From assembly GCF_040409805.1 (NCBI RefSeq), contig NZ_CP099572.1, positions 620,001 through 684,000 on the forward strand: a stretch of DNA of 64,000 bases, read 5' to 3'. Positions 17,210 through 36,037 of the stretch are shown one piece after another (position 1 is the first letter of the stretch; each line of letters opens with the position of its first letter). A program made the translations under genes and the position numbers. Below the pieces are notes generated by a model. The model was not told the DNA's origin and made no database searches. It saw nothing but the letters and a program-made list of their open reading frames with translations. The DNA is from Polynucleobacter sp. MWH-UH23A (GTDB lineage: Bacteria; Pseudomonadota; Gammaproteobacteria; Burkholderiales; Burkholderiaceae).

Positions 17210-18016
17210 ATGCATACCAAGGGTCGTACAGCAATACACTCAGACTCTAGCGCGCCATGTTCAACTTGTGCGCAACGCACTAGATGTGTCATTAATAAGA
17301 TATCCACAAAAGAAGTAGGGATTCTTTCATCTTCTTATATATCTCGAAAATCACTTCAGGAGGGGCAGTACGTTTATAGAAGAGATGGTTTATTTACAAA
17401 TGCCTATTCACTAAGGTTTGGCGCTGTGAAAAGTGAACTAGTTTTTCGTGATGGAATACCTCAGGTAACTCATTTTTCAGTGCCCGGTGAAGTGCTTGGA
17501 TTAGATGGCCTTAGTAGCGGAAAATATCAGCTAGATGCGATCTGTTTGGGCTCCGTGGAGGTTTGTTCTATTCCCATAGCAGACGTCAAGGCTATGATCC
17601 AAAGCTATCCAGAGTTTATGAGTGAGCTGGCAAATGCACTTAGTGACTTGCTCAATATTTCATATGCTCACAATTACGATTTAATGAACTTGAGTTCATT
17701 GGAGAGGGTTGCCGACTTTCTAATTAATTACTCCAACAGGTTGAGCACGGTTGGGTATGATCGCGATCACTTTATATTGCCCATGTCACGACCTGACTTG
17801 GCTAATTATTTGGGTATTACTGTTGAAACCTTAAGCAGATCTCTATCGCATTTAGAGAAAATAAATGTCATTAAATCCAAAAATCGCGAAATTACGTTTA
17901 TATCTAGATCGCCAATCTTTGAAATGCCAAACTCAATAACACTAAGAGAGCGCCATGAGCTGACAAAAAGTGGAGCTCATTCATATCCCCCCATAAAAGA
18001 GAGAAGAAAGCCATGA
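17210..18016 (+). CDS. fnr: FNR-type oxygen-sensing transcription regulator
   Basis: 268 residues from the ATG at 17210; a start at 17147 would add 21 residues upstream of the family's usual N-terminus. C17, C20 and C26 have the Cys-x2-Cys-x5-Cys spacing of FNR's [4Fe-4S] ligands, and C119 in VEVC corresponds to the fourth. A cyclic-nucleotide-type beta-roll follows, then a helix-turn-helix (193-216) with E206, S209 and R210 in VETLSR, the residues that read TTGAT half-sites. Perfect boxes of that type occur from 18.4 to 30.1 kb, so it probably drives this island when oxygen is low. The symbol denotes the family; a second chromosomal FNR may exist. Confidence 0.9.
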   Translation: MHTKGRTAIHSDSSAPCSTCAQRTRCVINKISTKEVGILSSSYISRKSLQEGQYVYRRDGLFTNAYSLRFGAVKSELVFRDGIPQVTHFSVPGEVLGLDGLSSGKYQLDAICLGSVEVCSIPIADVKAMIQSYPEFMSELANALSDLLNISYAHNYDLMNLSSLERVADFLINYSNRLSTVGYDRDHFILPMSRPDLANYLGITVETLSRSLSHLEKINVIKSKNREITFISRSPIFEMPNSITLRERHELTKSGAHSYPPIKERRKP

Positions 18017-18045
18017 GGAATTAGTGTGCCTGGTGTCTTTGTGGG

Positions 18046-18222
18046 CTAGTCCGCTGTATCGGTAGTATCTTTATGACGCTCATAGCTTTGCAATATCTTC
18101 TCTCTAAAAGTTAGATCTTCAAAAATTAGCTTTTCTAGTTCCTCGGCATGTCTTTTTGATGTTTCACCAGGCTGTTCAGTAAGCCAATCATATATGTCGA
18201 TAATTTTTTTCATATTAAACAT
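18046..18222 (-). CDS. Small acidic protein (58 residues), unknown
   Basis: Begins MFNMKKIIDIYDWLTE and ends KDTTDTAD. Soluble, strongly helical and charged, with no known domain. AGGAGA lies ten bases before the ATG, and the frame is clean, which supports a real gene although it is short. Upstream on the same strand are a tRNA-Gly-like sequence (18268-18340) and an FNR box (18466-18479) with a TATAAA at a proper distance, so it is probably expressed at low oxygen from a leader of about 210 bases. Confidence 0.65.
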   Translation of the reverse strand: MFNMKKIIDIYDWLTEQPGETSKRHAEELEKLIFEDLTFREKILQSYERHKDTTDTAD

Positions 18223-18267
18223 GTGATAAATCTCCTAACTTACTCCGAACATCGCCATTAATAGAAC

Positions 18268-18340
18268 GATGGGTGAGAGGATTTGAACCCCTATGACACT
18301 CCTATTGAGATTGCCGTTCTACCATTGAACTACACCCACC
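18268..18340 (-). tRNA. tRNA-Gly-like sequence, degenerate anticodon arm
   Basis: Read on the minus strand, it has a tRNA-Gly D-arm (GTTCAATGGTAGAAC), a T-arm (AGGGG-TTCAAAT-CCTCT) and a paired acceptor (GTGGGTG with CACCCAT). The anticodon stem does not pair in the usual register; GGCA...TGTC and CTC-AATAG-GAG can form a longer irregular hairpin instead. No CCA is encoded. In normal alignment the anticodon would be CAA. It is probably a tRNA relic or a tRNA-like leader element and not a working tRNA. Confidence 0.55.
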
Positions 18341-18465
18341 TTAAAGGGCATGGCCTAGATATTGTTACCGCGCTAGTAAAAGATTTCGATCTATTCCCTT
18401 TGTCATAAATCGAACTACATATCACCGTCCACAGCTACTTTATAAGTCAGCTAGTGATTTAAATT

Positions 18466-18479
18466 TTGATCCGCATCAA
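18466..18479. promoter_or_regulatory. FNR box 1
   Basis: TTGATCCGCATCAA, perfect consensus. A minus-strand TATAAA at 18439-18444 is centred 31 bases away, right for a class II promoter driving the tRNA-like/58-residue transcript. A weaker plus-strand TAGAGT lies at 18505. Confidence 0.75.
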
Positions 18480-18575
18480 ATTTTCTTCAATTTTTCAAGT
18501 TGTCTAGAGTGTATCGATAGGCTGAAGAAATTGGCAAAGATCCAATGTTCAATATTTAGAAATATTTTAAATATT

Positions 18576-18589
18576 TTGATTTATATCAA
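18576..18589 (+). promoter_or_regulatory. FNR box 2, usp promoter
   Basis: TTGATTTATATCAA, perfect consensus. TATAAA at 18609-18614 gives a predicted transcript start near 18621-18624, placing the box close to -40, the class II activator position. The usp start codon follows at 18661. Confidence 0.8.
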
Positions 18590-18660
18590 ACATGACGGTA
18601 TTGATGGATATAAATTGAAGACGTCTAAACAAATATATGAATGAATAAGGACGCACTTGT

Positions 18661-19113
18661 ATGTATAAAAAAATTCTAGTAGCAGTTGATGGTAGTGACA
18701 CCAGTAAATTAGCTCTTAAAGAGGCAATGAATCTGGCTGGAGATTGTGGATCAATATTGCGGATTGTTTATGTAGTTGATATCTACAACATGTATGCAGA
18801 AGCTGAGTATATGAATTACAAGGAAGTACAAAAATCCCTAGAGCGCGAAGGAGAAATGGTTTTGGAGAGAGCAAAGCGTAGCTTGAAGCAGTCGGGTATT
18901 TCATTTAGCCAGCATCTGATAAAGACCAGCTCGAGGAAGCCAAGAGTTGCCGAGACAATTGTGGCTGATGCAGATAAATGGAAGGCCGACCTGATAGTCG
19001 TTGGTACGCACGGTAGGCGTGGATTTAGTCGCTTTTTACTGGGAAGTGTTGCTGAGTCTATTGCGAGAGTGGCTACTAAGCCAGTGTTATTAATTCGCGG
19101 CAAGGGCAATTAG
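18661..19113 (+). CDS. Universal stress protein
   Basis: 150 residues, one UspA domain, beginning with the typical YKKILVAVDGSDTS. The ATP-binding signature G-2x-G-9x-G(S) is intact (GTHGRRGFSRFLLGS, about 119-133). First gene of a plus-strand set (18661-19971) behind a class II FNR promoter. USPs of this kind are strongly induced in anoxia in related betaproteobacteria. A second, degenerate Usp is at 36038 and a remnant at 13213. Confidence 0.93.
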   Translation: MYKKILVAVDGSDTSKLALKEAMNLAGDCGSILRIVYVVDIYNMYAEAEYMNYKEVQKSLEREGEMVLERAKRSLKQSGISFSQHLIKTSSRKPRVAETIVADADKWKADLIVVGTHGRRGFSRFLLGSVAESIARVATKPVLLIRGKGN

Positions 19114-19135
19114 AGATCTCGTCAAGTAGGTTGTT

Positions 19136-19258
19136 ATGAATCAAATGATGGATGGTTTTATGTTGAGTGGGATGGGCATCATTGGAATTCTTGTAGTAGT
19201 GGCGCTGATTCTGTCGGTGGCGGCATTGTGTAAATACCTGTTTTCGAATGAGAAGTAG
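19136..19258 (+). CDS. Small single-span membrane protein (40 residues)
   Basis: MNQMMDGFMLSGMGIIGILV begins a peptide with one hydrophobic helix (about 12-33) and the tail CKYLFSNEK. It lies 22 bases after the usp stop and before the HMA-like gene, all on one strand. A weak AGG precedes the ATG. Short envelope peptides of this type are common in stress operons; the partner is unknown. Confidence 0.55.
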   Translation: MNQMMDGFMLSGMGIIGILVVVALILSVAALCKYLFSNEK

Positions 19259-19288
19259 GTGGATGCGGATTTAATTAAGAACTATTGT

Positions 19289-19516
19289 ATGAAAACAATT
19301 AATTTAAATGTACAAGGCATATCTTCAGCAGCATCAATCAAGATTATTGAGCAAGCATTAAAAGCAATCGAAGACATATCTAGCATTCATGTTGATTGGG
19401 AGTCTGGCAGGATTCAGATTCAACGCGAGATGTCACAATCGGATGACATTATTCATGCCTTAAATGTCGCAGGTTGTCTAGCAAGTCTAGACCTTGATGA
19501 ACAGGACTCTACTTAG
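19289..19516 (+). CDS. HMA-like small protein without metal-binding cysteines
   Basis: 75 residues from the ATG at 19289; a GTG at 19259 would give 85. The fold pattern (MKTINLNVQGISSAAS, helix, strand, GRIQIQ, helix, GC) matches a heavy-metal-associated domain, but the CxxC is replaced by SSAAS, so copper binding in the normal way is unlikely. It lies in the usp transcript. Confidence 0.65.
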   Translation: MKTINLNVQGISSAASIKIIEQALKAIEDISSIHVDWESGRIQIQREMSQSDDIIHALNVAGCLASLDLDEQDST

Positions 19517-19527
19517 GAGAGTACAAA

Positions 19528-19971
19528 ATGAAAACGATGTTACATGCTAGCGCAGGAATATTTGCGATATTTTGTTTATTGGCATTTTTATCAGCAATTC
19601 TTGTCTCTGAGATTTACTATGCGCCACAGGATGTAATAGCCGTTCAGAAGACAATTTTGCAGGCTATGTGGGCTTATATACCTCTAATCTTATTTGCTGG
19701 AGCAATTGGTTATGAATTGGGTAATGAAAGAAAAGGCAATATTGTTCAAGCCAAAAAGAGGCGAATGACTGCAATTTGTCTAATCAGCATCTTTCTTTTA
19801 TTTCCAAGCGTATTTGTATTAGCAACTCAGTCCGCTGACGATATTAGAAATACGGTGTTTTATGGATTGGAAGCTTTTGAGCTAGTTCTCATGGCTTTTG
19901 TGGTTATCTTACTAGCCTTGAATGCCCGAGATGGAAGTAGGCTAACTGCCGATAGACCAACGCAACCCTAA
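19528..19971 (+). CDS. Four-helix membrane protein, unknown
   Basis: 147 residues with four predicted membrane helices (about 8-28, 45-65, 80-100, 115-135). TAGGAG precedes the ATG by a normal distance. No family recognised. Last gene of the usp set; its end overlaps the convergent SemiSWEET gene by four bases. Confidence 0.65.
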   Translation: MKTMLHASAGIFAIFCLLAFLSAILVSEIYYAPQDVIAVQKTILQAMWAYIPLILFAGAIGYELGNERKGNIVQAKKRRMTAICLISIFLLFPSVFVLATQSADDIRNTVFYGLEAFELVLMAFVVILLALNARDGSRLTADRPTQP

Positions 19972-20243
19972 CGATTGGATTCGGATCGAATTTTTAACGT
20001 CAAGATGCTACCAGCTAAAAGTAGACTCAAGGAGTTGGATAAGATGAGCGGCCATTTATGAATCAATATCCCGTATAAAAGCCATGTTGCAGCGCCGGCT
20101 GTAAAGAGTGAGTACACAAAGATTGAAATGCAATGAAAGTTTTGGCTTTTCCAAATCTGGTGGGCTTGCGGAATGAGGGCGACACCGGTAATCGCTGCCG
20201 CGAGAAAGCCTATATATTCAATGATCTGCGCTGAATCTAGCAT
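19968..20243 (-). CDS. SemiSWEET-type PQ-loop transporter
   Basis: 91 residues with three membrane helices and the PQ motif at 25-26 (ALIPQAHQIWKS), the size and layout of bacterial SemiSWEET sugar carriers, which work as dimers. Last gene of the seven-gene minus-strand set starting at 22496. The substrate is unknown. Confidence 0.85.
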   Translation of the reverse strand: MLDSAQIIEYIGFLAAAITGVALIPQAHQIWKSQNFHCISIFVYSLFTAGAATWLLYGILIHKWPLILSNSLSLLLAGSILTLKIRSESNR

Positions 20244-20266
20244 GTCATTCCATCAATAACTTGCTA

Positions 20267-20689
20267 CTATCCCATCGCTTGGTCGATAAATTGATTCAAT
20301 TGAGTAGATTGAAGGGCGCCGCTAACTCTATTGATCTCTTTACCATTCTTAAATAGCGCAAGAGTGGGAATGGAGCGAATGTTAAATTTCGCACCTATTG
20401 CAGGGTATTTTTCAGTATCAATTTTTACGTGAGCTATCTTATTGGAGCGTGCGGCGGCGCTTGCTTCAAATGTGGGCGCAAACATCTTGCAGGGGCCACA
20501 CCAAGGAGCCCAAAAATCAACAATGACAGGCAGGCTAGAGTCCTTCATTAGCTCCTCAAAGGCTAGTTCATCGGGGGAGATTGGAAGAGCTAGAAGATCT
20601 TTTTTGCACGCACCACATGTAGGTGCGCTAGCAATTTTTTCAATTGGGAAACGATTTCCTTTGCTGCAGTGTGGGCATGAAACAATCAT
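20267..20689 (-). CDS. trxC: Thioredoxin 2 (TrxC-type, zinc-binding)
   Basis: 140 residues from the ATG at 20689, which follows AAGGAG; the frame is open further upstream without a better start. An N-terminal zinc ribbon (C5, C8, C25, C28) precedes a thioredoxin fold with WCGPC at 63-67 and the cis-Pro in RSIPT. TrxC is an oxidative-stress disulphide reductase with zinc-modulated redox potential. It sits next to ohr, consistent with peroxide defence. Confidence 0.92.
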   Translation of the reverse strand: MIVSCPHCSKGNRFPIEKIASAPTCGACKKDLLALPISPDELAFEELMKDSSLPVIVDFWAPWCGPCKMFAPTFEASAAARSNKIAHVKIDTEKYPAIGAKFNIRSIPTLALFKNGKEINRVSGALQSTQLNQFIDQAMG

Positions 20690-20708
20690 TTTTTCACTCC
20701 TTAGGTGA

Positions 20709-21137
20709 TCAAAGCAAAATAAGCTCAACAGGAATATTCCCCCTGGTGGCATTTGAATAAGGACAAACCTTATGGGCCTCATCAATGATTTTCTGTGCGA
20801 GACTTCTTTCAACCCCAGGCAAAGAGATGCTTAATTTCACAGCAATTCCAAAGCCTAAAGGAGTTGGCCCAATATCAACACTCGCGTCGATGAAGGTATC
20901 GCTAGGTACATTCACTTCCATCGGGCCCGCCACAAACCGCATTGCGCCAAGAAAGCATGCAGAATAGCCAACAGCAAATAGTTGCTCTGGGTTGGTGCCA
21001 GTACCAGAGCCACCCATTTCCTTGGGTGGCGTAAGCACTACATCTACATGCCCATCATCTGTGCGTGAGTGACCGTCTCTACCCCCGGTGGTGTGAGCAT
21101 GAGCGGTATAAACAACTTTATCTAGTTTGGTAAGCAT
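20709..21137 (-). CDS. ohr: Organic hydroperoxide resistance protein (Ohr/OsmC family)
   Basis: 142 residues. The reactive cysteines are C61 (YSACFLG) and C125 (HKVCPYSNATRGN), spaced as in Ohr, which reduces organic hydroperoxides with lipoyl-type dithiols. GGAGC precedes the start. It lies between trxC and a DUF2789 gene in the FNR-linked minus operon. Ohr is normally controlled by the MarR protein OhrR, which is not adjacent here. Confidence 0.92.
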   Translation of the reverse strand: MLTKLDKVVYTAHAHTTGGRDGHSRTDDGHVDVVLTPPKEMGGSGTGTNPEQLFAVGYSACFLGAMRFVAGPMEVNVPSDTFIDASVDIGPTPLGFGIAVKLSISLPGVERSLAQKIIDEAHKVCPYSNATRGNIPVELILL

Positions 21138-21171
21138 ATAAGCTCCTTTATTGACCCTGTGGGTAAATGTC

Positions 21172-21402
21172 TTATCTCAGTAGGCTATTTAAAAGATCTA
21201 CCGTCTCAGCCCAGTCAGCATTTTTCGAGCATTCATCACGTAGAAAAGCAGCTTGACTTGGTTTCCAGAAGGGTGCATTAGATAGCAAAATCCCATTACC
21301 CAGAGGAGAGTGAGTTTTAATAAATTCGTTAATTGAGTTTGAATCAGAAGCTAATCCTAGTTGATTAAATAATTCTTTAAGAGGATGGTTTGGCGATTCC
21401 AT
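21172..21402 (-). CDS. DUF2789 family protein
   Basis: 76 residues with the family pattern FNQLGL...I..FI..H.PL...ILLS.APFW...Q..FLRDE...DADWAE.VDLLN.LLR. The role is unknown. A paralogue is at 30461-30700 in the same island. AAGGAG precedes the ATG. Confidence 0.85.
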   Translation of the reverse strand: MESPNHPLKELFNQLGLASDSNSINEFIKTHSPLGNGILLSNAPFWKPSQAAFLRDECSKNADWAETVDLLNSLLR

Positions 21403-21467
21403 AAGTTTTTCTCCTTAGTGAGAATTTATATTTCAGACTATTTGTTGTTTTACCAGGCCCACAAGGA

Positions 21468-21674
21468 CTATTCCCTTACTTTGGCAATCAAATTTTCTTT
21501 GTATCCACAACCATCTTCAATTGCCAAACGAAGTGCTTCAAGTTCAAAAGCGCTTGCATCTACCTCATTTTGATTTAACTGCATCGAATTAGTATTGCCT
21601 TCTAGATTAATGATGTAAGTCCAGACAACTTCAGGAGACCAGTCCCTAGTGAAAATATCGACAATTCGTTTCAT
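21468..21674 (-). CDS. Hypothetical 68-residue protein, paralogue of 11915-12112
   Basis: Begins MKRIVDIFTRDWSPEVVWTY and shares its N-terminal 20 residues and an acidic middle with the protein at 11915. Soluble, no known domain. Part of the minus-strand stress operon. Confidence 0.7.
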   Translation of the reverse strand: MKRIVDIFTRDWSPEVVWTYIINLEGNTNSMQLNQNEVDASAFELEALRLAIEDGCGYKENLIAKVRE

Positions 21675-21727
21675 GATTTAGCCCTTGTTGATTTATCGGA
21701 TAAATATTGGATTCCGCAACAACACAC

Positions 21728-22249
21728 TTATTCGCCTTTGGACGCCTCAATTGCTACTTTGATGACAACTTCATCGCTAATCTGTGGCGAATATTTACCC
21801 ATGTTGAAGTCTGATCTTTGGATTACCGCTACGGCATTTGCGCCAAAGTGCTCTTTTCCAGTAATTGGGTGCTTTCCGTATTCAAAATGGATTACTTCCA
21901 GTGTGACGTGTTCGCAGATATCTTTTATTGTTAAGACACCATGAACTGCCGTGACCTTTGAGCCCTCGAATTCAACTTTATCCGAGACAAATGTGGCCTT
22001 CGGATACTCTGAGGTATTGAGAAACTCAATGCCCTGAATATGGGAGTTGAATAATTCAGAGCCAGTATTGACGGATCTTGTGTCAATCTCAATATTCACA
22101 GACCCGTTTTGTGATTTCAAATTGAGCTTGATAACCCCGCTAAGCTTGTCAAATCGGCTAATTTGCCTTGAGAAGCCAAAATGGCAATACTCGAAATAAG
22201 CAAAGGTGTGGCCAGGATCTAATACAAATAGTTGATTAGTTTTTGTCAT
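21728..22249 (-). CDS. YceI family protein, cytoplasmic form
   Basis: 173 residues, lipocalin-like beta-barrel with typical YceI features (FVLDPGHTFAYFEYCHFGFS at the start, then KLNLKSQNGSV, and a C-terminal strand with ISDEVVIKVAIEA). YceI proteins bind isoprenoid-type lipids and respond to pH or stress. No signal peptide is present, unlike E. coli YceI. GGAGTC lies before the start. Confidence 0.88.
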   Translation of the reverse strand: MTKTNQLFVLDPGHTFAYFEYCHFGFSRQISRFDKLSGVIKLNLKSQNGSVNIEIDTRSVNTGSELFNSHIQGIEFLNTSEYPKATFVSDKVEFEGSKVTAVHGVLTIKDICEHVTLEVIHFEYGKHPITGKEHFGANAVAVIQRSDFNMGKYSPQISDEVVIKVAIEASKGE

Positions 22250-22277
22250 ATATGACTCCTTAATAATTGATGCAAAA

Positions 22278-22496
22278 TTAAATTGCGGTAACTACTAGTA
22301 CGCCTAAGGTAATTTTTTCCTCAAACTGTTCACGTTTAAGGTAAGCGGCCTCACCGGTTGATTTAAGGATCGAAAGGCCAGTGCTTGAATCAAAACTGGC
22401 TTCATAGTCGCCCGGTGCAATGGGTGAGAATCCAATATCAGTGCCATCAAAAGCATGTCTACGTCCTAAAAATCCTTGATTTACATGTACTTGCAT
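22278..22496 (-). CDS. Hypothetical 72-residue protein
   Basis: First gene of the minus-strand operon behind the paired FNR boxes. It begins MQVHVNQGFLGRRHAFDGTD; compact and soluble, with a hydrophobic end (GVLVVTAI). No family recognised. GGAGCC precedes the ATG. Confidence 0.65.
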   Translation of the reverse strand: MQVHVNQGFLGRRHAFDGTDIGFSPIAPGDYEASFDSSTGLSILKSTGEAAYLKREQFEEKITLGVLVVTAI

Positions 22497-22596
22497 AGTG
22501 AGGCTCCTTCAGGGTCAATAAAGCGGTTAATTTCTTTTATTTGACATTCATTACCAATTCTTTAAGTCAATGATCTCGTTGGCTTCAAAAAATTTC

Positions 22597-22610
22597 TTGA
22601 TATGTATCAA
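22597..22610. promoter_or_regulatory. FNR box 3 (divergent promoter)
   Basis: TTGATATGTATCAA, perfect consensus, nearer the minus-strand operon, 100 bases before the start at 22496. The -10 for that direction is weak. Confidence 0.75.
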
Positions 22611-22637
22611 AAATATTCGAGAGATTCTTTGAATTAA

Positions 22638-22651
22638 TTGATACGTATCAA
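22638..22651. promoter_or_regulatory. FNR box 4 (divergent promoter)
   Basis: TTGATACGTATCAA, a complete 14-base palindrome, centred 41 bases from box 3. TATCTT at 22673-22678 lies at class II distance for the plus-strand operon starting at 22736. The boxes are about four helical turns apart, so two FNR dimers could bind one face of the DNA. Confidence 0.78.
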
Positions 22652-22735
22652 AATAATTTTTTCCTTGAGTTTTATCTTGGTTCATACACCAATTGGTGTT
22701 TATGAAAATTCATATAGGTAAACGAGGAGATGTAA

Positions 22736-23092
22736 ATGAACAAAATTATTCAAAAAATCATGGTGGCTACTTTTGGGGTTGCATTGACTTCGGGTGTCTA
22801 TGCGGCTGATATGGGGAGGATTACGATTTTGTCGCCCAAAAATGATGCAATCGTAAATGCTCGATCCGTTGTAAAACTTTCTTATAAGGTGGCCTTAGGC
22901 CCCGAAGGAAACCACCTTCACGTCTATGTTGATGATCAAAAGCCAATTGTTGATCGCAATGTGAGTGGCTGCCCATGCACTGTTGATTTGCCAGCACTAT
23001 CACCTGGTATGCATGTGGTGGTTGTAAAAGAGGCACGCGCCGATCATAGTTTGACTGGCGTTGAGGCATCAACCATTGTTACTGCTAAATAA
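22736..23092 (+). CDS. Secreted protein with an Ig-like/DUF4399-type domain
   Basis: 118 residues, signal peptide of about 23 (VYAAD). The mature beta-sandwich carries GNHLHVYVDDQKPI and a CPC motif near residue 80, with His residues that could bind metal or haem. First gene of the long plus-strand operon behind FNR box 4. CGAGGAG precedes the ATG. The DUF4399 resemblance is from the NHLHVYVD pattern only. Confidence 0.65.
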   Translation: MNKIIQKIMVATFGVALTSGVYAADMGRITILSPKNDAIVNARSVVKLSYKVALGPEGNHLHVYVDDQKPIVDRNVSGCPCTVDLPALSPGMHVVVVKEARADHSLTGVEASTIVTAK

Positions 23093-23096
23093 AGAT

Positions 23097-23498
23097 ATGC
23101 AATCGCTACTCTACGCCCTTATTCAGGCAATTCATAACATTGGCGCTGTAGTCATTGTCGGAGTAGGGGCGTATGGTTTATTTTTTGCGATAGGCGAATA
23201 TAGGCGTTTATTGGCTGGGGTGCAAGCATTTGCCTGGGTTATACAAGGAATTACTGGCGGAGCATTTGGTCTAACCACCTTTCATTATTACCACCAGCTA
23301 CCGGACATCCATGGCACAGCTATTGCGGTGCTGCTAATCAAAATTGCTTGCGTGATATTGGGTTTCATATTCTCCGCAACATATGTGATTTATTGCACTC
23401 GCTTTTCAAAAACGATTGAAAAGATTTATTGGTGGCCTATGTTTATGTTTGGTGTTCTAGCACTTATTTCTGCTGCATTTTTGAGATGGTTTTCATAA
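23097..23498 (+). CDS. Four-helix membrane protein, unknown
   Basis: 133 residues from the ATG at 23097, four bases after the upstream stop; the frame is open to a TTG at 23061. Four membrane helices with His residues (near 10, 60 and 63) that recall haem-binding small membrane proteins such as the CopD family, but the match is loose. It is likely co-transcribed with the secreted protein and sodB. Confidence 0.6.
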
Positions 23499-23550
23499 GT
23501 TCAAAGCAAATTATTGCACTTGGTTACTTGGATATTTAAAAGGAATTCAC

Positions 23551-24129
23551 ATGGAACATAAATTACCGGTCTTACCATACGGGCTTGATGCGTTAGAACC
23601 ATATATCTCCAAGGAGACTATGGAATATCACTATGGCAAGCATCACCAGGCTTATGTCAACAATCTCAATGCCCTAATTGTGGGAACAGGATTTGAAAAT
23701 TTAAGCCTCGAAGAAATTATTAAAAATGCATCTGGCCCCATTTTTAATAATGCCGCTCAAGTTTGGAATCATACGTTTTATTGGATGTGCATGGAGCCCT
23801 CTACCCCGGAAGTTCCCTTTGGAAAGCTAGGCAAAGCAATCAATGCAAAGTGGGGCTCATATGACGCATTTGTTGAAGAATTTTCCAAAATTGCAGTTGG
23901 AACTTTTGGTTCTGGCTGGGCATGGTTGGTTAAGAAAGCTGATGGATCATTAGAGATTGAATCAACCAGTAATGCTGGTACGCCACTTACCTCGGGATCA
24001 AAGCCATTATTGGTCTGCGATGTCTGGGAGCATGCATATTACATCGACTATAGAAATGCGCGACCTCATTATTTGCATAGTTTTTGGCGGTTAGTGAACT
24101 GGGAATTTGTTGAGAAGAATTTTGAATAA
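23551..24129 (+). CDS. sodB: Iron superoxide dismutase
   Basis: 192 residues. Metal ligands H27, the His of WNHTFYW (near 74), and the Asp and His of DVWEHAYY near 157-161. The run [11 protein letters not shown] indicates the iron form. It converts superoxide to oxygen and peroxide in the cytoplasm. AAGGA precedes the ATG. Its place in a low-oxygen operon suggests preparation for re-oxygenation. Confidence 0.95.
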
Positions 24130-24155
24130 AAAGAATTGATATCGAGGTGCTGCAA

Positions 24156-25493
24156 ATGGTTGATCTAACTGTAATTGATGCATCAGCCAAGATTTTGGAT
24201 GGTAAAGACGGGGATTATGACGCCCTAATGAAGCAAATCGGGGGCTCCAGAATCGTGTTGTTAGGCGAGGCATCGCATGGGACTGCTGAGTTTTATCGCG
24301 AAAGAATTCGAATTACACAAAGATTGATTGTCGAAAAAGGCTTTACAGCTGTTGTTATAGAAGGGGATTGGCCTGACGCATATAGAGTAAATCGATACGT
24401 TCGCAGCCAAAGCAACGATAGTTCTGCAGATGAAGCTTTATCAGGATTTAAGAGATTTCCTACATGGATGTGGCGAAATACTGAAGTTCTGAGATTTGTG
24501 GAGTGGCTACATAGACATAATGACTCAGTAATTTTTGATCGAGATAAAGTTGGCTTTTTCGGAATTGATCTTTATAGCTTATTCACATCCATTGATGAGG
24601 TGCTTAAGTACTTAGATAAAGTTGATCCACCTGCTGCAATCGCTGCTAGAGAGCGGTATGCCTGCTTTGACCACTTTGATAGAAGCAGTGAGCTGTATGG
24701 GTATTCTCAAAGTGTTAAAGGTGCCGCCGCTTCATGCGAGCCTCAAGTGGTGGCTCAATTGGTCGAACTTTATAGAAAAAGTGATCAATATCTTGCTCAT
24801 AAAGGTGCAGAAGAAACAGATGCTCTGTTCTATGCTCAGCAAAATGCAAGGTTGATCAAAAATGCGGAAGAGTATTACCGCAATATGTTTAATCGTAGTG
24901 TTTCATCGTGGAATATGCGTGACCAACATATGGCTGAGATCTTAGTAAATCTAGATAGGCACATCACAGATATACGAAGTGAACCATCCAAAATCATAGT
25001 GTGGGCACATAACTCACATCTTGGCGATGCGCGTGCTACAGAGATGGGTGAGCGCGGTGAATTAAACGTCGGTCAGCTAATGCGCCAGACTTATGGGCGG
25101 GAAGTCTATTCGGTTGGCTTTACAACTTACCATGGAACTGTGACGGCGGCATCAGATTGGGGTGCTCCAGTCCAGAGGAAAAGGGTTCGCCAAGCACTTC
25201 ATGCGAGTTATGAAAATTATTTCCACCAGGTAGGCATCAATACGTTCTATTTGCCTATTAAAAATAACTACCTACTGCATGAAACACTTTCGTATGAGGC
25301 TCACCTAGAAAGGGCTATTGGGGTGATTTACTCTCCAAATACTGAGCGCCATAGTCACTATTTTCATGCAAACCTATCCAAGCAATTTGATTCAATCATT
25401 CACATAGATGAGTCACATGCTTTAAAGCCTCTGGAGTTAACAAGCCACTGGATAAATGGTGAATCTCCAGAAACATATCCAAGGGGTTTATAG
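24156..25493 (+). CDS. Erythromycin-esterase-like hydrolase
   Basis: 445 residues from the ATG at 24156 with GAGGTG upstream; a GTG at 24147 is also in frame. Family motifs: GEASHGTAEFY with the catalytic His, VVIEGDWPDA with the acidic residue, and WAHNSHLGDARA. Members include EreA/EreB macrolide esterases, but many chromosomal ones lie in stress clusters and have no shown antibiotic activity. In this operon a role in stress or metabolite hydrolysis is more likely than resistance. Confidence 0.88.
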   Translation: MVDLTVIDASAKILDGKDGDYDALMKQIGGSRIVLLGEASHGTAEFYRERIRITQRLIVEKGFTAVVIEGDWPDAYRVNRYVRSQSNDSSADEALSGFKRFPTWMWRNTEVLRFVEWLHRHNDSVIFDRDKVGFFGIDLYSLFTSIDEVLKYLDKVDPPAAIAARERYACFDHFDRSSELYGYSQSVKGAAASCEPQVVAQLVELYRKSDQYLAHKGAEETDALFYAQQNARLIKNAEEYYRNMFNRSVSSWNMRDQHMAEILVNLDRHITDIRSEPSKIIVWAHNSHLGDARATEMGERGELNVGQLMRQTYGREVYSVGFTTYHGTVTAASDWGAPVQRKRVRQALHASYENYFHQVGINTFYLPIKNNYLLHETLSYEAHLERAIGVIYSPNTERHSHYFHANLSKQFDSIIHIDESHALKPLELTSHWINGESPETYPRGL

Positions 25494-25514
25494 AACAGAG
25501 CATAAAGAACTGAT

Positions 25515-27059
25515 ATGAGTAATACACACCTAACTCTTCGCTCTGTGGCAATTGATACCTATCGGGAAAACGTCGCTTATTTGCATCGTGATTGCTGTGT
25601 TTATCACGCAGAAGGGTTTCAGGCTCTATCTAAGATTGCTGTAAAGGCTGGTGAAAGTCAAATACTGGCGACCTTAAACGTCGTTGATGATCTTTCAATT
25701 GTTGGAGATACCGAAATTGGATTATCTGAGGATGCATTCAAGCAATTAGGCGTTGAAAGTGGACACGCAGTTTCGGTTTCGCAAGCGGAGCCACCCGCAT
25801 CAATGGGATCTTTATTTCGAAAAATAAATGGCGAACGCCTTGATGCAGGGAGTTTCTTGCAGATAGTTAAGGACATTTCAAGACGGCTGTATTCCAAGAT
25901 TGAGCTTACGGCATTTGTAGTGGCCACCAATCGCGGGGAGATGGATCGTGAGGAGGCTTACTTTTTAACTAAAGCGATGATTGAGTGTGGGCGTCGCCTA
26001 TCTTGGAATCAGCAGATTGTGGTTGATAAGCACTGCATCGGAGGCATTCCCGGCAATCGGACATCTATGTTGGTCATACCCATCTTAGCAGCTCATGGAA
26101 TGCTGTGCCCAAAAACATCATCGCGAGCTATTACTTCGCCGGCTGGTACTGCCGACACCATGGAAGTCTTAGCCAAGGTAGACCTTTCCTATGAAAAAGT
26201 CTTGGAGATTGCTTTAAAAAATCATGCCTGCCTAGTCTGGGGAGGTGCCTCTGATCTATCGCCGGCTGATGATGTATTGATTTCTGTAGAGCGGCCATTG
26301 GCTCTTGATTCTCCTGGTCAAATGGTTGCCTCGATTCTTTCTAAAAAAATCGCAGCAGGTTCAACTTACCTGCTGTTAGATATTCCGCTTGGGCCTACCG
26401 CCAAAGTGAGCTTGATGCAGGAAGCTCAAAACTTAAGGCGTCTATTTGAATATGTCGCTTCTCGGCTGAATCTCTCATTAGACGTGGTTATTACTGATGG
26501 TCGTCAGCCAATTGGTTTTGGTGTAGGCCCAGCTCTAGAGGCAAGAGATGTCATGCGGGTTCTGGAAAACGATCCAAAGGCACCAAATGATTTGCGCCAG
26601 AAAGCCCTGAGGTTGGCCGGTCGACTCTTAGAGCAAGATCCCGATATAAGGGGAGGAGATGGTTTTGCCGTAGCAAGAGATATTTTGGATTCTGGTAGGG
26701 CATTAGCAAAGATGAATGCCATCATTGAGGCACAGGGCTCAAATCATTTTGATTATAAAAATCCTCCTTTAGGAAAGCTGACATTTGAAGTCCTCTCTCC
26801 AGATTCTGGCGTTATTGCCTCGATAGACAACTTGCAAATATCACGTATTGCAAGATTAGCTGGAGCCCCAAAAATACAAGGAGCAGGCGTCGATCTGATT
26901 TACAAATTGGGTGATAAGGTCAATAAGGGGGATGCTTTGTATCGTATTCATTCTGGAATTGAGGCTGATCTTGTATTTGCGAAAGCACTATGTAGTAAAT
27001 CAATTGGTTACAAAATTGGCCTCGCAGAAGAAATTTCTCATGTATTTGTGGAATTCTGA
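25515..27059 (+). CDS. Type-2 thymidine phosphorylase / AMP phosphorylase-like
   Basis: 514 residues, longer than E. coli DeoA (about 440) because of an extra N-terminal domain of about 85 residues, as in archaeal AMP phosphorylase. Phosphate/nucleoside motifs [12 protein letters not shown] (171-182) and [14 protein letters not shown] (202-215). It cleaves a nucleoside or NMP with phosphate to free the base and a ribose phosphate. The substrate cannot be settled: family enzymes use thymidine in some annotations and AMP in archaea. It overlaps the PRPP synthetase start by one base and so is translationally coupled to it. Confidence 0.88.
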
Positions 27060-27949
27060 TGAATAGTGCTGATCTAATTTACTTCCAAAGCCAAACAATG
27101 TCTGCATTATTTTTGGCTAAATTAATGCATCTTGAGTCAGGTCCTATTTTGCGACATGATTTTCTAGATGGTGAGTTTAAATTGCAACTGCCAGAAAACT
27201 TATCAAGTAGTGTTTACATTTACTACACCCTGGATCATCCAAGTGATAAGTTTCTTGAATTATTATTTGCCGCCCGAACTGCTAGGCATATGGGCGTTCA
27301 GAACCTAACCCTAATTGCCCCATATTTGTCTTATATGCGGCAAGATGCTGCATTTCATCCTGGTGAGGTTATTAGTCAGCGAATCATTGGGGACTTATTG
27401 GCATCATTATTTGATGTTGTCATTACTGTAGATCCTCACTTACATCGAATTACAAAATTGGAGGAGGCTATACCAGTAGAGCATGCCCTTGTAGTAAGTG
27501 CTGCACCTCTATTAGGTCAATTCGCAGCACTAAAGAGGGCTAATCCATTATTAATAGGCCCTGACTCTGAGTCTATTCAATGGATAGAGCAGGCGGCTTT
27601 AGCAAATCAACTAGATTATGCGGTAGCCAAAAAGATTCGACACAGCGATGAAAAGGTGGAGATCAAGCTCCCTAAAACTAAAGTGAAAGATCGCCATGTT
27701 GTTTTGCTAGATGATATTGCTAGTAGTGGGCATACCTTAGCGAGTGCTGTCGATCTCATATTGAGAAAAGGGGCTAAAACAGTAGATGTTGCTGTGACTC
27801 ATGCCTTAATCAATGCCGATACCTATGATCTCTTAAAACTCTCTGGCATAGAAAACATCTGGAGTACAGATTCAGTAATTCACTCAACCAATGTAGTGAG
27901 CATCCTGCCTGATATTGCCAGAGCATTAATGAGTCTCAATAAAGATTAG
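27059..27949 (+). CDS. Ribose-phosphate pyrophosphokinase (PRPP synthetase), short form
   Basis: 296 residues, against about 315 for housekeeping PrsA. YMRQD (92-96) corresponds to the ATP loop, DPH (125-127) to the metal site, and LLDDIASSGHT (216-226) to the PRPP-binding loop. It makes PRPP from ribose-5-phosphate and ATP. The core genome should carry its own prs, so this is a second, divergent copy, resembling archaeal class enzymes. It is coupled to the phosphorylase upstream and two phosphoribosyltransferases downstream. Confidence 0.9.
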   Translation: MNSADLIYFQSQTMSALFLAKLMHLESGPILRHDFLDGEFKLQLPENLSSSVYIYYTLDHPSDKFLELLFAARTARHMGVQNLTLIAPYLSYMRQDAAFHPGEVISQRIIGDLLASLFDVVITVDPHLHRITKLEEAIPVEHALVVSAAPLLGQFAALKRANPLLIGPDSESIQWIEQAALANQLDYAVAKKIRHSDEKVEIKLPKTKVKDRHVVLLDDIASSGHTLASAVDLILRKGAKTVDVAVTHALINADTYDLLKLSGIENIWSTDSVIHSTNVVSILPDIARALMSLNKD

Positions 27950-27979
27950 TTCATATGTATTCAATATCAGGAGATGAAC

Positions 27980-28561
27980 ATGAATAGCTTACCAGTTGGA
28001 AATCGCACTTGTTTATACGAAACTCATCAAATGGTTGAGGTCATTGATCGTATGTCATCAAAAGCAGCTGCTCTGGTTCGTAACACTAAAAGATTAGCTG
28101 TTATAGGAGTGCTTCGCCGTGGAGCCCCGTTGGCAGATATGCTTACAGAGCGCCTGATAAATGATTATCAAATGCCAGCGCCCCTCAGATTTGATTTATT
28201 AGTAAAGCGTTATGGAGATGATTTAACGCTCATCCATGCTGAGACGCATTTGCAGTCTAATGAGACTTTGGAATCAACAGACTTAACTGACTGCACATTG
28301 CTCATCGTTGATGATGTTCTTTATACCGGACATTCATTGCTAAGGGTGGTTGATTATTTGATGAAGAAAACCCCCGCAAGAATTCTGATTGCCTGCCTTG
28401 TCGATAGAAAAGTAAATGTATTGCCAATCAAGGCCGAGATTGTAGGTGTTGATATTCAAATTGCGGCTGGTGATGTTGTTGAATGCCATGTGCCGCCGTA
28501 TGAGCCTACATTTGGCATCCAGCTATTACAGCTTAAATCTAAAAATAATGAAAGTTTATGA
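27980..28561 (+). CDS. Phosphoribosyltransferase, PyrR/Hpt-like
   Basis: 193 residues. I chose the ATG at 27980 because AGGAG abuts the alternative ATG at 27974 too closely. The PRPP loop is IVDDVLYTGHSL (near 112-123), and VLRRGAPLAD (near 48-57) resembles the PyrR substrate loop. It uses PRPP and a base, probably uracil or a purine. The base specificity is not visible. Its stop overlaps the next gene's start (ATGA). Confidence 0.85.
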   Translation: MNSLPVGNRTCLYETHQMVEVIDRMSSKAAALVRNTKRLAVIGVLRRGAPLADMLTERLINDYQMPAPLRFDLLVKRYGDDLTLIHAETHLQSNETLESTDLTDCTLLIVDDVLYTGHSLLRVVDYLMKKTPARILIACLVDRKVNVLPIKAEIVGVDIQIAAGDVVECHVPPYEPTFGIQLLQLKSKNNESL

Positions 28562-29196
28562 TGAACTTCAAGAATAGAGTGCAAGCCGCTCATCTGCTTG
28601 CACGAAGCCTATCTCAATACATAGGATTTAATCCACTAGTGCTCGCGATTCCACGTGGAGGCGTACCACTAGGAAGAGTTATTGCTGATATTTTGGGTGG
28701 CGAACTGGATGTTTTGATGGTTCGAAAACTGGGTGCGCCAATGGATTCAGAATTGGCTATTGGCGCTGTTACTGAAGAGGGTGAAGTTTTTGTTTCATCT
28801 TTGGCTGAAAAGGTTGGTGCTACCGATGAATACATAGAGTCCGAAGTTTGTCGGCAGATTTATTTGATGCACCGTCGAAGGGCTTTATATACGCCAGTGA
28901 GAGCTCCAATTAGCCCCCGAGACCGGATTGTTATTGTGGTGGATGATGGACTTGCAACTGGTGCAACAATGGCAGCAGGACTTAGGGAACTCAGAAACCA
29001 GATGCCGCGAAGATTAATTTGCGCTGTTCCAGTAGCAGCTGAAAACTCTATTGAGCTGGTTAGAACTTATTGTGATGAATTTATATGTTTGCTACAAGAA
29101 ATTAGATTTACTGGTGTTGGCGCCTACTACGAGGATTTTTCACAAGTAGAAGATAGTGAGGTGATAGCGCTTTTAGCTGGTGCTCAAGAGATCTAA
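28558..29196 (+). CDS. Putative type I phosphoribosyltransferase
   Basis: 212 residues with a PRPP-binding loop IVVDDGLATGATM (near 125-137) and an early IPRGGVPLG (about 32-40). This subfamily occurs widely in stress islands beside Usp and dienelactone-hydrolase genes; its substrate is unknown. It differs from the upstream PyrR-like copy, so the two are not recent duplicates. ATGA overlap with it. Confidence 0.85.
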   Translation: MMNFKNRVQAAHLLARSLSQYIGFNPLVLAIPRGGVPLGRVIADILGGELDVLMVRKLGAPMDSELAIGAVTEEGEVFVSSLAEKVGATDEYIESEVCRQIYLMHRRRALYTPVRAPISPRDRIVIVVDDGLATGATMAAGLRELRNQMPRRLICAVPVAAENSIELVRTYCDEFICLLQEIRFTGVGAYYEDFSQVEDSEVIALLAGAQEI

Positions 29197-29198
29197 AA

Positions 29199-30053
29199 AT
29201 GCCAGTACTGCGCAAATCAATCAAAAATTTATTATTAACTTGCTTACTAATAATTGGGGGGACGCCGTTTATTGCGATAGCTGATAAGGGGTTGAGTGAC
29301 TCGTCAGCAATAACGCAGCAAGAACTATCAAAAGAATTTTCAGTTTTAGTGACGCCGTATTTGGATACCCCTGAGTCAGTCTCGGCTGAATATGCGGCTC
29401 ATTTAGAGAGGGCGCTCAAAGGCGCCAATATTTGGCTTGAACATCAGCAATTTGTAATTCTAGTTGACCGAAATCCTAATATTCAGGCTGCATTTCTTTA
29501 CCTGGGATCTGAAAAGGAGGGCTGGTCGCTTTTGGGGGTTGCGCCCATTTCCTCTGGCTTGCCAGGCAAATTTGAGCACTTTTTAACGCCTATTGGTGTA
29601 TTTGAGCATTCATTAGATAACCCTGACTTTCGTGCATTAGGTACAAAGAATGAGCTGGGCTTTCGGGGTTATGGTGAAAAGGGGATGCGCGTATATGACT
29701 TTGGTTGGATTGCCGCACAAAGAACCTGGGGTAAAAAAGAGATAGGTGTGTTGAGGTTGCAGATGCATGCAACCGATCCGGAGTTGGCTGAGAATCTACT
29801 TGGAACACCCCGCTCAGAAGGTTGTATTCGTATACCAGCCACATTGAATCAATATATTGATCATTATGGCGTGCTTGATGCTCAATATGATAAGGCAGCA
29901 TCTCAGGGCTCTCGTTTTTGGGTGTTGGCTAAAAATCGCACCGTCACTCCATTTTCAGGAAAGTATTTGGTGGTGATTGATACAAATCAAAATAGCAAGC
30001 CCGAATGGTCTAAACCACTAAAAAAGAAAGCAAATCATCAATTCATCCGCTGA
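29199..30053 (+). CDS. L,D-transpeptidase-type (YkuD) exported protein
   Basis: 284 residues with an N-terminal signal or anchor of about 27. The catalytic domain (about 85-255) has H190, C209 and R211 in RSEGCIR; the usual SHGC is SEGC here, so the first His is Glu. Such enzymes make 3-3 cross-links in peptidoglycan or attach lipoproteins. It is last in the plus-strand operon. A perfect FNR box lies inside its 3' end (29977). Confidence 0.85.
   Translation: MPVLRKSIKNLLLTCLLIIGGTPFIAIADKGLSDSSAITQQELSKEFSVLVTPYLDTPESVSAEYAAHLERALKGANIWLEHQQFVILVDRNPNIQAAFLYLGSEKEGWSLLGVAPISSGLPGKFEHFLTPIGVFEHSLDNPDFRALGTKNELGFRGYGEKGMRVYDFGWIAAQRTWGKKEIGVLRLQMHATDPELAENLLGTPRSEGCIRIPATLNQYIDHYGVLDAQYDKAASQGSRFWVLAKNRTVTPFSGKYLVVIDTNQNSKPEWSKPLKKKANHQFIR
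29977..29990. promoter_or_regulatory. FNR box 5, inside the L,D-transpeptidase gene
   Basis: TTGATACAAATCAA, perfect consensus, 64 bases before the gene's end and 120 bases (about 11 helical turns) before box 6. It may help control the gene at 30201 or be chance. Confidence 0.45.
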
Positions 30054-30096
30054 AATTACATAAATCTTCCAGGGATACAGCAATTTATTCAATATT

Positions 30097-30110
30097 TTGA
30101 TTTGCATCAA
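30097..30110 (+). promoter_or_regulatory. FNR box 6, promoter of the 84-residue protein gene
   Basis: TTGATTTGCATCAA, perfect. TAAGAT at 30132-30137 is centred 31 bases downstream, giving a class II promoter with a start near 30144. Confidence 0.8.
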
Positions 30111-30200
30111 AAATTAAACTCCTCGCCTAAATAAGATGAATAAAGGAGCTTAAAGATTTGAATTTTTCAAATATTGACTGGCTCATTTGCGGAGGAGTAA

Positions 30201-30455
30201 GTGAGTAAAACATCAAGAAAGCATTTGGCAATTGAGGAAATTCCATCAGCTGACCAATTTGTTGATGCAATTCATCATGTGGATGATGATTTTTCTGGCA
30301 GTGATTTGCTTCAATCTACGCCAAAAGGACTTATTTACAGTCTTCTAGAGACATTGGGTTCAATTGCGGGTGACCCAGATCTACCAAGTCATCTTAGATC
30401 GGGATATGAGGGTGCAATAGAACTGGCTCGAGATGTAGAGGCAAGGATTGAGTAG
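30201..30455 (+). CDS. Hypothetical 84-residue protein
   Basis: A GTG start with GGAGGAG just upstream; begins MSKTSRKHLAIEEIPSADQF, is acidic and helical, and has no known domain. It has its own class II FNR promoter, which suggests a specific role at low oxygen. It is followed by a convergent DUF2789 gene after six bases. Confidence 0.65.
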   Translation: MSKTSRKHLAIEEIPSADQFVDAIHHVDDDFSGSDLLQSTPKGLIYSLLETLGSIAGDPDLPSHLRSGYEGAIELARDVEARIE

Positions 30456-32182: not shown

Positions 32183-32263
32183 AGGTGAGTGAGGTAATAG
32201 TTATCTTTTCAAGGACATGTTGAAAGGTAAGTATTTTTATTGATGTGATTTAAGGAGATAAGC

Positions 32264-32749
32264 ATGGATAACATGAACAATCAAATTGCAGTGGATTCAT
32301 TAAATAGAATCATGGAGCTAGAGCTAGCTGGGGTGGTTAAATATACTCACTACTCTTTAATGGTCTACGGGTACAACCGAATTCCAATTGTGGAATGGCT
32401 CAAGGGTAACGCAACTGAGAGTCTAGATCATGCCCATAGAGCGGGGGAGCTTGTAACTTTATTGGGCGGTCACCCATCATTAAAAATTGGCCCCTTGCTA
32501 GAGACAGAAAAGCATGACATTGGCGATATTTTGCGTGAGAGTTTGGAGCATGAAACGATTGCTCTGGCTGCCTACTATGACTTATTAAAAATTGCCACAC
32601 GCACGCATCCAGAAACTAGTGGAGTGCAATCAGTATTGCTCGATGAGTATGCAAGAGAGCTAATTGTCCAGGAGGAAATGCATCTAGATGAAGTCAATAA
32701 GATGCTTAGAAAGCCAGGAGAAATTAATTCCTTTTGCCATAAAACTTAA
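32264..32749 (+). CDS. Ferritin-like diiron protein (bacterioferritin/Dps-type)
   Basis: 161 residues, a four-helix bundle with two Glu-x-x-His pairs: ESLDHAH (E51, H54) and EEMHLDE near the C-terminus, plus Glu in ELELAGVVKYTHY and in LEHETIAL. It has no clear haem Met. It probably stores or oxidises iron. AAGGAGAT precedes the ATG. A degenerate FNR-like TTGATGTGATTTAA lies at 32238-32251. Confidence 0.82.
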   Translation: MDNMNNQIAVDSLNRIMELELAGVVKYTHYSLMVYGYNRIPIVEWLKGNATESLDHAHRAGELVTLLGGHPSLKIGPLLETEKHDIGDILRESLEHETIALAAYYDLLKIATRTHPETSGVQSVLLDEYARELIVQEEMHLDEVNKMLRKPGEINSFCHKT

Positions 32750-32760
32750 GGAGGGGTGAA

Positions 32761-33315: not shown

Positions 33316-33326
33316 AGATTGTTTTC

Positions 33327-34814: not shown

Positions 34815-34819
34815 TTGAC

Positions 34820-36010: not shown

Positions 36011-36037
36011 AGAAATAGGCACTTAAAAGGAGTGATC

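Follow-up and report, generated by a model that had tools for sequence, protein, structure and literature searches.

Do an oxygen-sensor-type regulator, its binding sites and its target genes move together between planktonic bacteria, and what lies behind the most unusual promoter of such a locus? These questions are raised by a 64,000-nt stretch of Polynucleobacter sp. MWH-UH23A (hereafter the window; positions 620001–684000 of its single-contig, 2.07-Mb genome), which encodes an FNR-type regulator, carries six perfect FNR boxes (TTGAT-N4-ATCAA) and includes a candidate structured RNA. We consider it likely, from sequence comparison, that the locus serves low-oxygen and stress conditions under FNR control and forms one cassette of an additive tandem tRNA-Lys island in Polynucleobacter. 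Coordinates are window positions unless given as genome positions, and G-numbers and L-numbers designate compared genomes and their loci, respectively. The genus comparison set comprised 186 Polynucleobacter genomes (144 of good quality), and the locus itself was compared chiefly between the MWH-UH23A genome, G090 and G097, with G101 covering it only in part because of a contig end.

FNR-type regulator and FNR boxes of the tRNA-Lys cassette

The cassette (10360–39748) is one unit of a tandem array of ~76 kb in which exact 45-bp copies of the 3' end of tRNA-Lys mark the boundaries. Five exact repeats occur in the genome (genome positions 583243, 596548, 620230, 630360 and 659748, the last being the intact gene), along with two further copies that carry one mismatch each. 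Three of these attachment (att)-type repeats fall in the window (230–274, 10360–10404 and 39748–39792). A tyrosine integrase (L203, 16797–17837) sits beside the 596548 repeat, within the array and outside this cassette, and the rest of the genome has four more integrase matches. All 12 complete congeners checked have the tRNA-Lys/amidase junction (77–90%), and seven of them carry extra exact or 98% copies of the repeat (G060, G061, G062, G063, G075, G183 and G184). G090 also has its locus at this tRNA-Lys, and the right flank there is homologous; the insertion site is thus seen in two genomes, the contigs of G097 and G101 ending before it. With tRNA 3'-end repeats, an integrase and variable presence at a conserved site, the element is a tRNA-associated additive island, and the tRNA-Lys site is a hot spot where cassettes accumulate. 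Across the genus, the locus occurs sporadically. The GC content, computed in 2-kb steps, is 0.383–0.433 in the cassette vs 0.445–0.493 to the right of tRNA-Lys, and the part of the window to the left of the cassette is as low as the cassette. Homologs of a glycosyltransferase region that here belongs to the neighboring cassette (637–2876) adjoin the FNR locus in G090 (L106) and G097 (L108), which indicates that cassettes have been reshuffled.

The regulator encoded in the cassette has three N-terminal cysteines and a distal cysteine, a cNMP-like domain and a Crp-type helix-turn-helix with an E..SR motif; these are the DNA-contact residues of E. coli FNR. It aligns with solved FNR structures at an E value of 1e-25 and shares cysteine spacing and recognition helix with the FNR-type regulators of PDB entries 5CVR, 5E44 and 8QTO, which we take to be from Aliivibrio fischeri, and with E. 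coli FNR, whereas its C-terminal tail diverges both from the solved structures and from E. coli FNR. Some match to this protein is present in 157 of the 186 genus genomes (124 of the 144 of good quality), mostly at ~35% identity (33–37%) among the matches listed. Close relatives scoring >250 bits occur in nine genomes, including MWH-UH23A itself, two at 82%, one at 69% and five at 47–51%. The database proteins related to it at 82% and 69% identity are likewise from Polynucleobacter.

The genome as a whole contains 22 perfect boxes, compared with two matches to the reversed control pattern, and six of them fall within a 12-kb part of the cassette. The remaining 2.04 Mb holds 16, of which 10 are inside open reading frames (ORFs) of at least 80 aa and six are intergenic, so that five of the 11 intergenic boxes genome-wide are in the cassette. 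The enrichment in the 29.4-kb cassette corresponds to a Poisson P of ~1e-6 for all boxes (6 vs 16) and of 7e-7 for intergenic boxes (5 vs 6), both post hoc because the region was chosen for its boxes. When one mismatch is allowed, the window has 18 matches, whereas 100 shuffles averaged 5.28 and never exceeded 11. The 29977 box, inside an ORF (29199–30053) and without a −10-like hexamer at the spacing described below, is probably due to chance. Elsewhere in the genome, two perfect boxes stand upstream of an OmpW-family gene (L123, ~3051–3123; genome 785650–785722), and two more CRP-family genes flank a TrxC-like gene with a perfect box of its own (L124, genome 1083000–1093000).

Each box was read in both directions, and a −10-like hexamer was scored when at least four of six positions matched TATAAT. 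A repeated layout emerged, namely the 14-bp box, 21 nt and then the hexamer, at five of the six window boxes, all five intergenic and two of them on the minus strand. Across MWH-UH23A, G090 and G097, 14 of 15 boxes have a hexamer at spacer 21 in their better direction; among the 32 spacers scored, the runner-up reaches 7 of 15. Because these genomes are related, the 15 boxes do not count as independent events, and the set leaves out a G097 box (L108, 13948) and the boxes of G101 and G077. At the boxes elsewhere in the genome, the same spacing was found for none of the 10 coding and two of the six intergenic ones. With the hexamer assigned to −13 to −8, the cassette boxes come to lie at −41.5, the class II position, in what we regard as putative promoters. 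For the box preceding the universal stress protein (Usp) gene (18576), a TATAAA at spacer 19 matches better in MWH-UH23A (5/6) than the hexamer at spacer 21; spacer 19 was given up in favor of the spacing common to the other promoters and to G090 and G097. Two intergenic regions hold two boxes each, one per direction.

A first-pass annotation of this sequence had described an FNR with four cluster cysteines and six perfect boxes, all of which we recover in the pattern given. It had further proposed three boxes with a −10 at class II distance on a mobile-type island spanning 17210–30455. The geometry stands, but the count is five; the mobile setting is borne out by the att repeats and the integrase in the array, but the borders are those of the att sites at 10360 and 39748. 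Equal frequency of boxes in the rest of the genome, which it had named as grounds for abandoning the idea, was not observed (6 in 29.4 kb vs 16 in 2.04 Mb). Its observations are therefore confirmed and its interpretation is supported in part.

Beyond the post hoc and non-independent nature of the counts given above, other results weigh against FNR control of the cassette. The island protein scores 111.9 bits against a cut-off of 228 for Fnr in NCBIfam (PRK11161.1), and for this reason we call it FNR-type and not orthologous Fnr. No box with up to one mismatch was found within 850 bp upstream of its gene, and in G097 no perfect box precedes the fumarase gene at the site matching the 30097 box. 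Regulator, boxes and promoter geometry together support FNR control, with the oxygen response, FNR binding and transcription standing as predictions.

A candidate structured RNA behind the 18466 box

The most unusual part of the locus, absent from the first-pass annotation, is a predicted structured RNA behind the leftward 18466 box. ARAGORN called a “tRNA-Ile (aat)” at this site and Rfam a tRNA (42 bits), and the 98 nt preceding the tRNA-like domain are strongly conserved in four genomes (MWH-UH23A, G090, G097 and G101). Rfam 15 contains no family that matches the 5' domain at its gathering score or above, and only tRNA matches the 3' domain (34–45 bits across the nine copies described here). 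A covariance model built from the four copies, which themselves score 190–195 bits, was run over the genus set and detected five further copies at 118, 114, 94, 79 and 59.5 bits in G019, G168, G111 (two) and G043, giving nine copies in eight of the 186 congeners. While 150 of the 186 genomes passed an E value of 0.001, we kept only full-length matches scoring 59 bits or more, nine in all. Matches of up to 48.5 bits were taken as tRNA background without one-by-one inspection because known tRNAs score in this range (25.7 bits for the tRNA-Lys of MWH-UH23A), and a 54-bit match in G158 was dropped as an ordinary tRNA-Gly by eye. The weakest copy kept, that of G043 (59.5 bits), is near the tRNA background and is supported by its promoter and pseudoknot.

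All nine copies have TATAAA at the start of the model (one base earlier in G043), preceded by an FNR-like box at exactly 21 nt. Six of these boxes are perfect, one has one mismatch (G168) and two have two mismatches (G111a and G043). Across the 186 congeners, a perfect box followed by N20–22 and TATAAA occurs 26 times in 21 genomes, vs three times for the control, and in MWH-UH23A it occurs once, before the RNA.

The nine copies were aligned with the covariance model. In this alignment, which leans towards the model's own helices, and with a pseudoknot added to the structure, 93.9% of cells are paired and 32 of the 55 base pairs show changes on both sides. None of 500 shuffles reached any of five pairing measures, and slid registers pair at 41–50%. 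This pseudoknot, between the loop of the long 5' hairpin and the strand just before the tRNA-like domain, was spotted by eye and was absent from the aligning model; 88% of its cells are paired, with double changes in four of its six pairs. When its strands were swapped between sequences, the observed score was reached in 4 of 20,000 permutations (1 of 720 with six divergent representatives), and none of 2,000 shuffled tails reached it.

The tRNA-like domain retains the D-arm, T-arm and acceptor stem. At the anticodon position, eight of the nine copies have an arm with a loop of 4–5 nt, in most cases interrupted by a small internal loop (absent from G111a), and the fold in G043 is weak; the 7-nt anticodon loop of a decoding tRNA is missing. 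The base after the acceptor stem varies among copies, which argues against ordinary aminoacylation. The element thus resembles tRNA and transfer-messenger RNA (tmRNA) in its D-arm, T-arm and acceptor helix, and tmRNA also combines a tRNA-like domain with pseudoknots. However, unlike in tmRNA, the tRNA domain is contiguous and not split, and ARAGORN made no tmRNA call in the window or in the RNA-bearing loci.

Outside the genus the RNA was not found, in searches whose stricter filters may lose weak matches. Among the matches listed from 398 genomes of the family (E up to 1e-7), those outside Polynucleobacter score at most 63 bits, and the 17 inspected are tRNA-Gly (TCC). The order search (399 genomes, E up to 1e-15) yielded one further match (G1159, 72 bits), also an ordinary tRNA-Gly (TCC), so that all 18 inspected matches are of this type. 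The RNA region has a single 29-base match on plasmids, and its exact pattern gave none in viral contigs. In titles and abstract beginnings of open-licence literature, we found nothing that describes this cassette or a tRNA-like RNA driven by FNR.

As for the other five copies, in G043 an erythromycin-esterase family gene, a phosphoribosyltransferase, a Usp and an FNR are encoded in the same 18 kb as the RNA, and a baeRF-like (baeRF12/Host_attach) protein is encoded just upstream of it; by gene content, this locus (L249) is a predicted second low-oxygen-type cluster. One copy in G111 (G111b) has Usp and TauE as neighbors, the other (G111a) has an FNR with a box ~4 kb away, and that of G019 neighbors a cyclopropane synthase and a second box. 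The two neighbors tested in G168 gave no Pfam match. Judged by these neighborhoods, the RNA tends to occur near genes for low-oxygen and stress functions, and the ORF downstream of it is not constant.

We lean, by a modest degree, towards reading 18268–18438 as a new class of bacterial RNA that would be induced in anoxia through a strict FNR class II promoter. It would consist of a branched, pseudoknotted 5' domain and a contiguous tRNA-like 3' domain with a short-looped hairpin in place of the anticodon arm, would travel with mobile low-oxygen cassettes, and may act on RNase P, RNase Z, a synthetase, EF-Tu or ribosomes, slowing translation in oxygen starvation. In that case the RNA may be categorically new. 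Some results weigh against the RNA and its FNR-box promoter. The isolated folding energy is no better than that of shuffles (z of −0.96 in MWH-UH23A and −1.75 in G097), a generic σ-70 scan around the RNA found two promoter-like sites, no more than in shuffles (mean 3.3), and there is no terminator-like site in 17900–18700. In addition, only six of the 26 box–N20–22–TATAAA matches precede RNA copies, meaning that the promoter also occurs without the RNA.

Alternative explanations and proposed mechanism

The alternative that survives best takes the tRNA-like RNA for nothing more than a leader that acts in cis on the small gene downstream and not for a free RNA, an account that we hold to be possible and yet the weaker one. 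An ORF does start within ~70 nt of the RNA in MWH-UH23A, G090, G097, G101, G019, G111a and G043, on the same strand, and in MWH-UH23A no terminator-like site separates the two. However, this ORF differs by lineage, belonging to a 58-aa family in four genomes and being another ORF in G019, G111a and G043, and in G168 and G111b some 190–230 nt follow the RNA before any same-strand ORF of at least 60 aa begins. Since the downstream ORF differs between lineages or starts far off, the RNA is the constant unit.

A further question is which regulator would serve the boxes. A second FNR-type gene in the genome (genome 1561014) encodes a protein with the same four cysteines and E..SR and with about one third of its residues identical to the island FNR, so that describing the regulon as self-contained, as was done at first, goes too far. 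Because the key residues are the same, either protein could serve the boxes, which also counts against assigning them to the island copy. It is conceivable that the second gene mainly serves them, the island having joined the host regulon and its own FNR being spare or having another role. Proteins that match the island FNR at the level of this gene (~33–37%) are widespread among the congeners. The RNA is also found in G111 and G043, for which the best FNR matches listed are 34–36% identical, and in G168 (74% complete), for which none is listed. Nevertheless, the island FNR gene directly adjoins the boxes in MWH-UH23A, G090, G097 and G101, and the density of boxes in the cassette is far above that of the genome. 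We therefore think this division of labor unlikely.

More doubtful still is a general oxidative-stress locus whose boxes would answer another signal of the CRP/FNR family, such as nitric oxide or redox state, and not anoxia. The superoxide dismutase, OsmC, TrxC, ferritin-like and two Usp genes of the cassette would fit such a role, as would the five HTH_Crp_2 matches in the genome (four above the cut-off), but the four cluster cysteines and the exact FNR consensus in the boxes speak against it. Finally, a decayed tRNA-Gly or integration scar, suggested by the resemblance of the tRNA-like element to tRNA-Gly, its odd ARAGORN anticodons and the frequent use of tRNAs by islands, is highly improbable given the compensatory changes that maintain the acceptor, T-arm, extra arm and 5' domain, the same promoter layout before all nine copies, and an att site that is tRNA-Lys and lies 21 kb away.

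Under FNR control of the cassette, we propose that as oxygen falls, [4Fe-4S] FNR (the island copy, perhaps together with the other) would bind the boxes and activate the class II promoters. The first, directed leftwards, would drive the structured RNA and then the 58-aa ORF, and the second the Usp gene. The third, also leftwards, would drive the YceI-OsmC-TrxC genes, and the fourth the superoxide dismutase gene and, in MWH-UH23A but not in G090 or G097, the nucleoside and phosphoribosyl pyrophosphate (PRPP) module. A fifth would drive the fumarase-ferritin-Usp2-GGDEF block. The products would limit damage upon re-oxygenation and aid persistence without growth. The RNA would be made under the same switch, and its tRNA-like end would probably make the transcript a substrate for processing by RNase P or RNase Z, or engage tRNA-handling enzymes.

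The locus is of a known kind, namely an FNR/Anr persistence regulon, here on a tRNA-borne island. According to the available parts of two reports on Burkholderia cenocepacia, anr2 adjoins uspA in strain H111 and a double anr mutant does not survive anoxia (PMC9104464), and the low-oxygen-activated lxa locus, with 50 genes (BCAM0275–BCAM0323) including six Usps, is linked to anoxic persistence (PMC6127331). The cassette shares with these systems an FNR/Anr gene beside a Usp gene and a set of stress genes. By analogy with this aerobe, where Anr is needed for anoxic survival, the benefit expected of the cassette in the absence of oxygen is survival and not growth. There are also differences. In a comparison made by protein names, the lxa locus has heat-shock and BON-domain proteins, and its proposed regulator, BCAM0049, is outside the locus, whereas the regulator of the cassette lies inside the tRNA-Lys unit. 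The same parts of these reports (PMC9104464, PMC6127331) describe no RNA of the type found in the cassette. Flexible islands of freshwater plankton, as far as described in the available parts of studies of Polynucleobacter (PMC5644125) and Methylophilaceae (PMC10872708), are variable and exchanged between species like the cassette. The main text of the former mentions neither FNR nor tRNA, whereas the cassette carries its own regulator. The structured RNAs Polynucleobacter-1 (RF01718), icd-II, carA and HRC-28-1 come from the same genus and, in the portions of PMC8632094 and PMC2864571 considered, have other neighboring genes and structures. The corresponding portions of PMC4603805 and PMC6472365 contain nothing on FNR boxes.

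The cassette thus appears to be a compact case of a gene of the oxygen-sensor type moving between plankton species together with its binding sites and targets, in which the step from an isolated island to an integrated regulon can be studied. If transcribed, the RNA would tie an oxygen switch directly to a bacterial tRNA mimic other than tmRNA, and a response to anoxia at the level of translation could then be tested in a bacterium with a small genome. The novelty of the RNA is the most valuable of these readings to test.

Gene content of the cassette

Table 1. Features of the cassette and its borders, partly predicted, in window coordinates.
Feature	Position	Strand	Details
Left att	10360–10404	+	exact repeat; 45 bp identical to tRNA-Lys 3' end
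Island FNR, 268 aa	17210–18016	+	C-x2-C-x5-C and distal Cys; ETLSR recognition helix
58-aa ORF downstream of RNA	18046–18222	-	kept in G090, G097 and G101; no Pfam match
Structured RNA	18268–18438	-	pseudoknotted 5' domain 18438–18341; tRNA-like 3' domain 18340–18268, no anticodon loop
FNR box, structured RNA	18466–18479	-	TATAAA 18444–18439, spacer 21; faces left to the RNA; alike in MWH-UH23A, G090, G097 and G101
FNR box, Usp operon	18576–18589	+	TAAATT 18611–18616, spacer 21; TAnATT in MWH-UH23A, G090 and G097
Universal stress protein	18661–19113	+	Usp
Leftward genes: thioredoxin-2 type (TrxC-like), OsmC, YceI	20267–22249	-	
72-aa ORF	22278–22496	-	first leftward ORF downstream of 22597 box
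FNR box, leftward YceI-OsmC-TrxC genes	22597–22610	-	GATCAT, spacer 21; GATCAT/GATGAT in MWH-UH23A, G090 and G097
FNR box, rightward operon	22638–22651	+	TATCTT, spacer 21; TATCTT/TATTGT in MWH-UH23A, G090 and G097
Two small ORFs (118 and 133 aa) and Fe/Mn superoxide dismutase	22736–24129	+	present in G090 and G097
Accessory module: erythromycin-esterase family, AMP/thymidine phosphorylase family, PRPP synthetase family, two phosphoribosyltransferases, L,D-transpeptidase-like ORF	24147–30053	+	
Perfect box in last ORF of accessory module	29977–29990	+	no hexamer at spacer 21
FNR box, 84-aa ORF and following genes	30097–30110	+	TAAGAT 30132–30137, spacer 21; TATGAT in G090
84-aa ORF	30201–30455	+	after 30097 box
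Rest of conserved locus: fumarase C, ferritin-like, FMN reductase, RNB exonuclease, MFS, second Usp, GGDEF, HD	30791–39367	+	
Intact tRNA-Lys	39748–39823	-	3' 45 bp (39748–39792) is right att

Common to MWH-UH23A, G090 and G097 are an AAA_33 P-loop protein, FNR, the RNA, Usp, OsmC, YceI, two small ORFs, superoxide dismutase, fumarase C, ferritin-like protein, FMN reductase, RNB, MFS, Usp2 and GGDEF, and this conserved content extends to ~38 kb. For the last gene of the cassette (HD domain), the G097 contig has a homolog at another place, and the stretches of G090 that were read have none. The gene comparison used 32 query proteins, and the identities of two of them, labeled TrxC and ParE30 (the latter only a placeholder), were left out because of a wrong reading frame. 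G101 has the FNR gene with the fumarase-ferritin-FMN reductase part to its left, up to the contig end. The 118- and 133-aa ORFs have no Pfam match (the latter scanned with an earlier start), nor does the L,D-transpeptidase-like ORF, which was labeled by eye.

The accessory module (24147–30053) is absent between the superoxide dismutase and the next genes in G090 and G097, and neither genome has a match to its phosphorylase; nucleotide salvage, which the first-pass annotation had counted among the functions of the island, is thus not supported as a part of its core. The phosphorylase is above the subfamily cut-off NF003338; for the AMP phosphorylase model, which requires 535 bits, its score is 492. 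By family assignment, the phosphorylase, the PRPP synthetase and the two phosphoribosyltransferases could recycle nucleosides or nucleotides. Two metagenome phosphorylases (P0005 and P0007) and two metagenome FNRs (P0130 and P0128) show the same longest-contig sizes, 27809 and 20236, and this agreement in size, from which a shared contig is deduced, suggests that the fuller form of the locus exists elsewhere.

Within the genus, eight of the 186 genomes have a phosphorylase match, the seven besides MWH-UH23A at only 40–45% identity, and the gene is common in the class (93 of 369 genomes). Only five of 40 class loci around it contain any perfect box; in 38 of the 40 a PRPP synthetase homolog adjoins, with few other genes of the window. 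The boxes are therefore not tied to the phosphorylase in general, and we rejected it as a marker of the locus. A plasmid search for carriers returned 172 records, the best at ~55% identity. Two plasmid neighborhoods were examined and have only a thioredoxin or an L,D-transpeptidase-type neighbor in common with the cassette, one of them also a PRPP synthetase. Also among the plasmid matches are MBL-fold proteins, with an annotated phnN on one Variovorax plasmid (H78).

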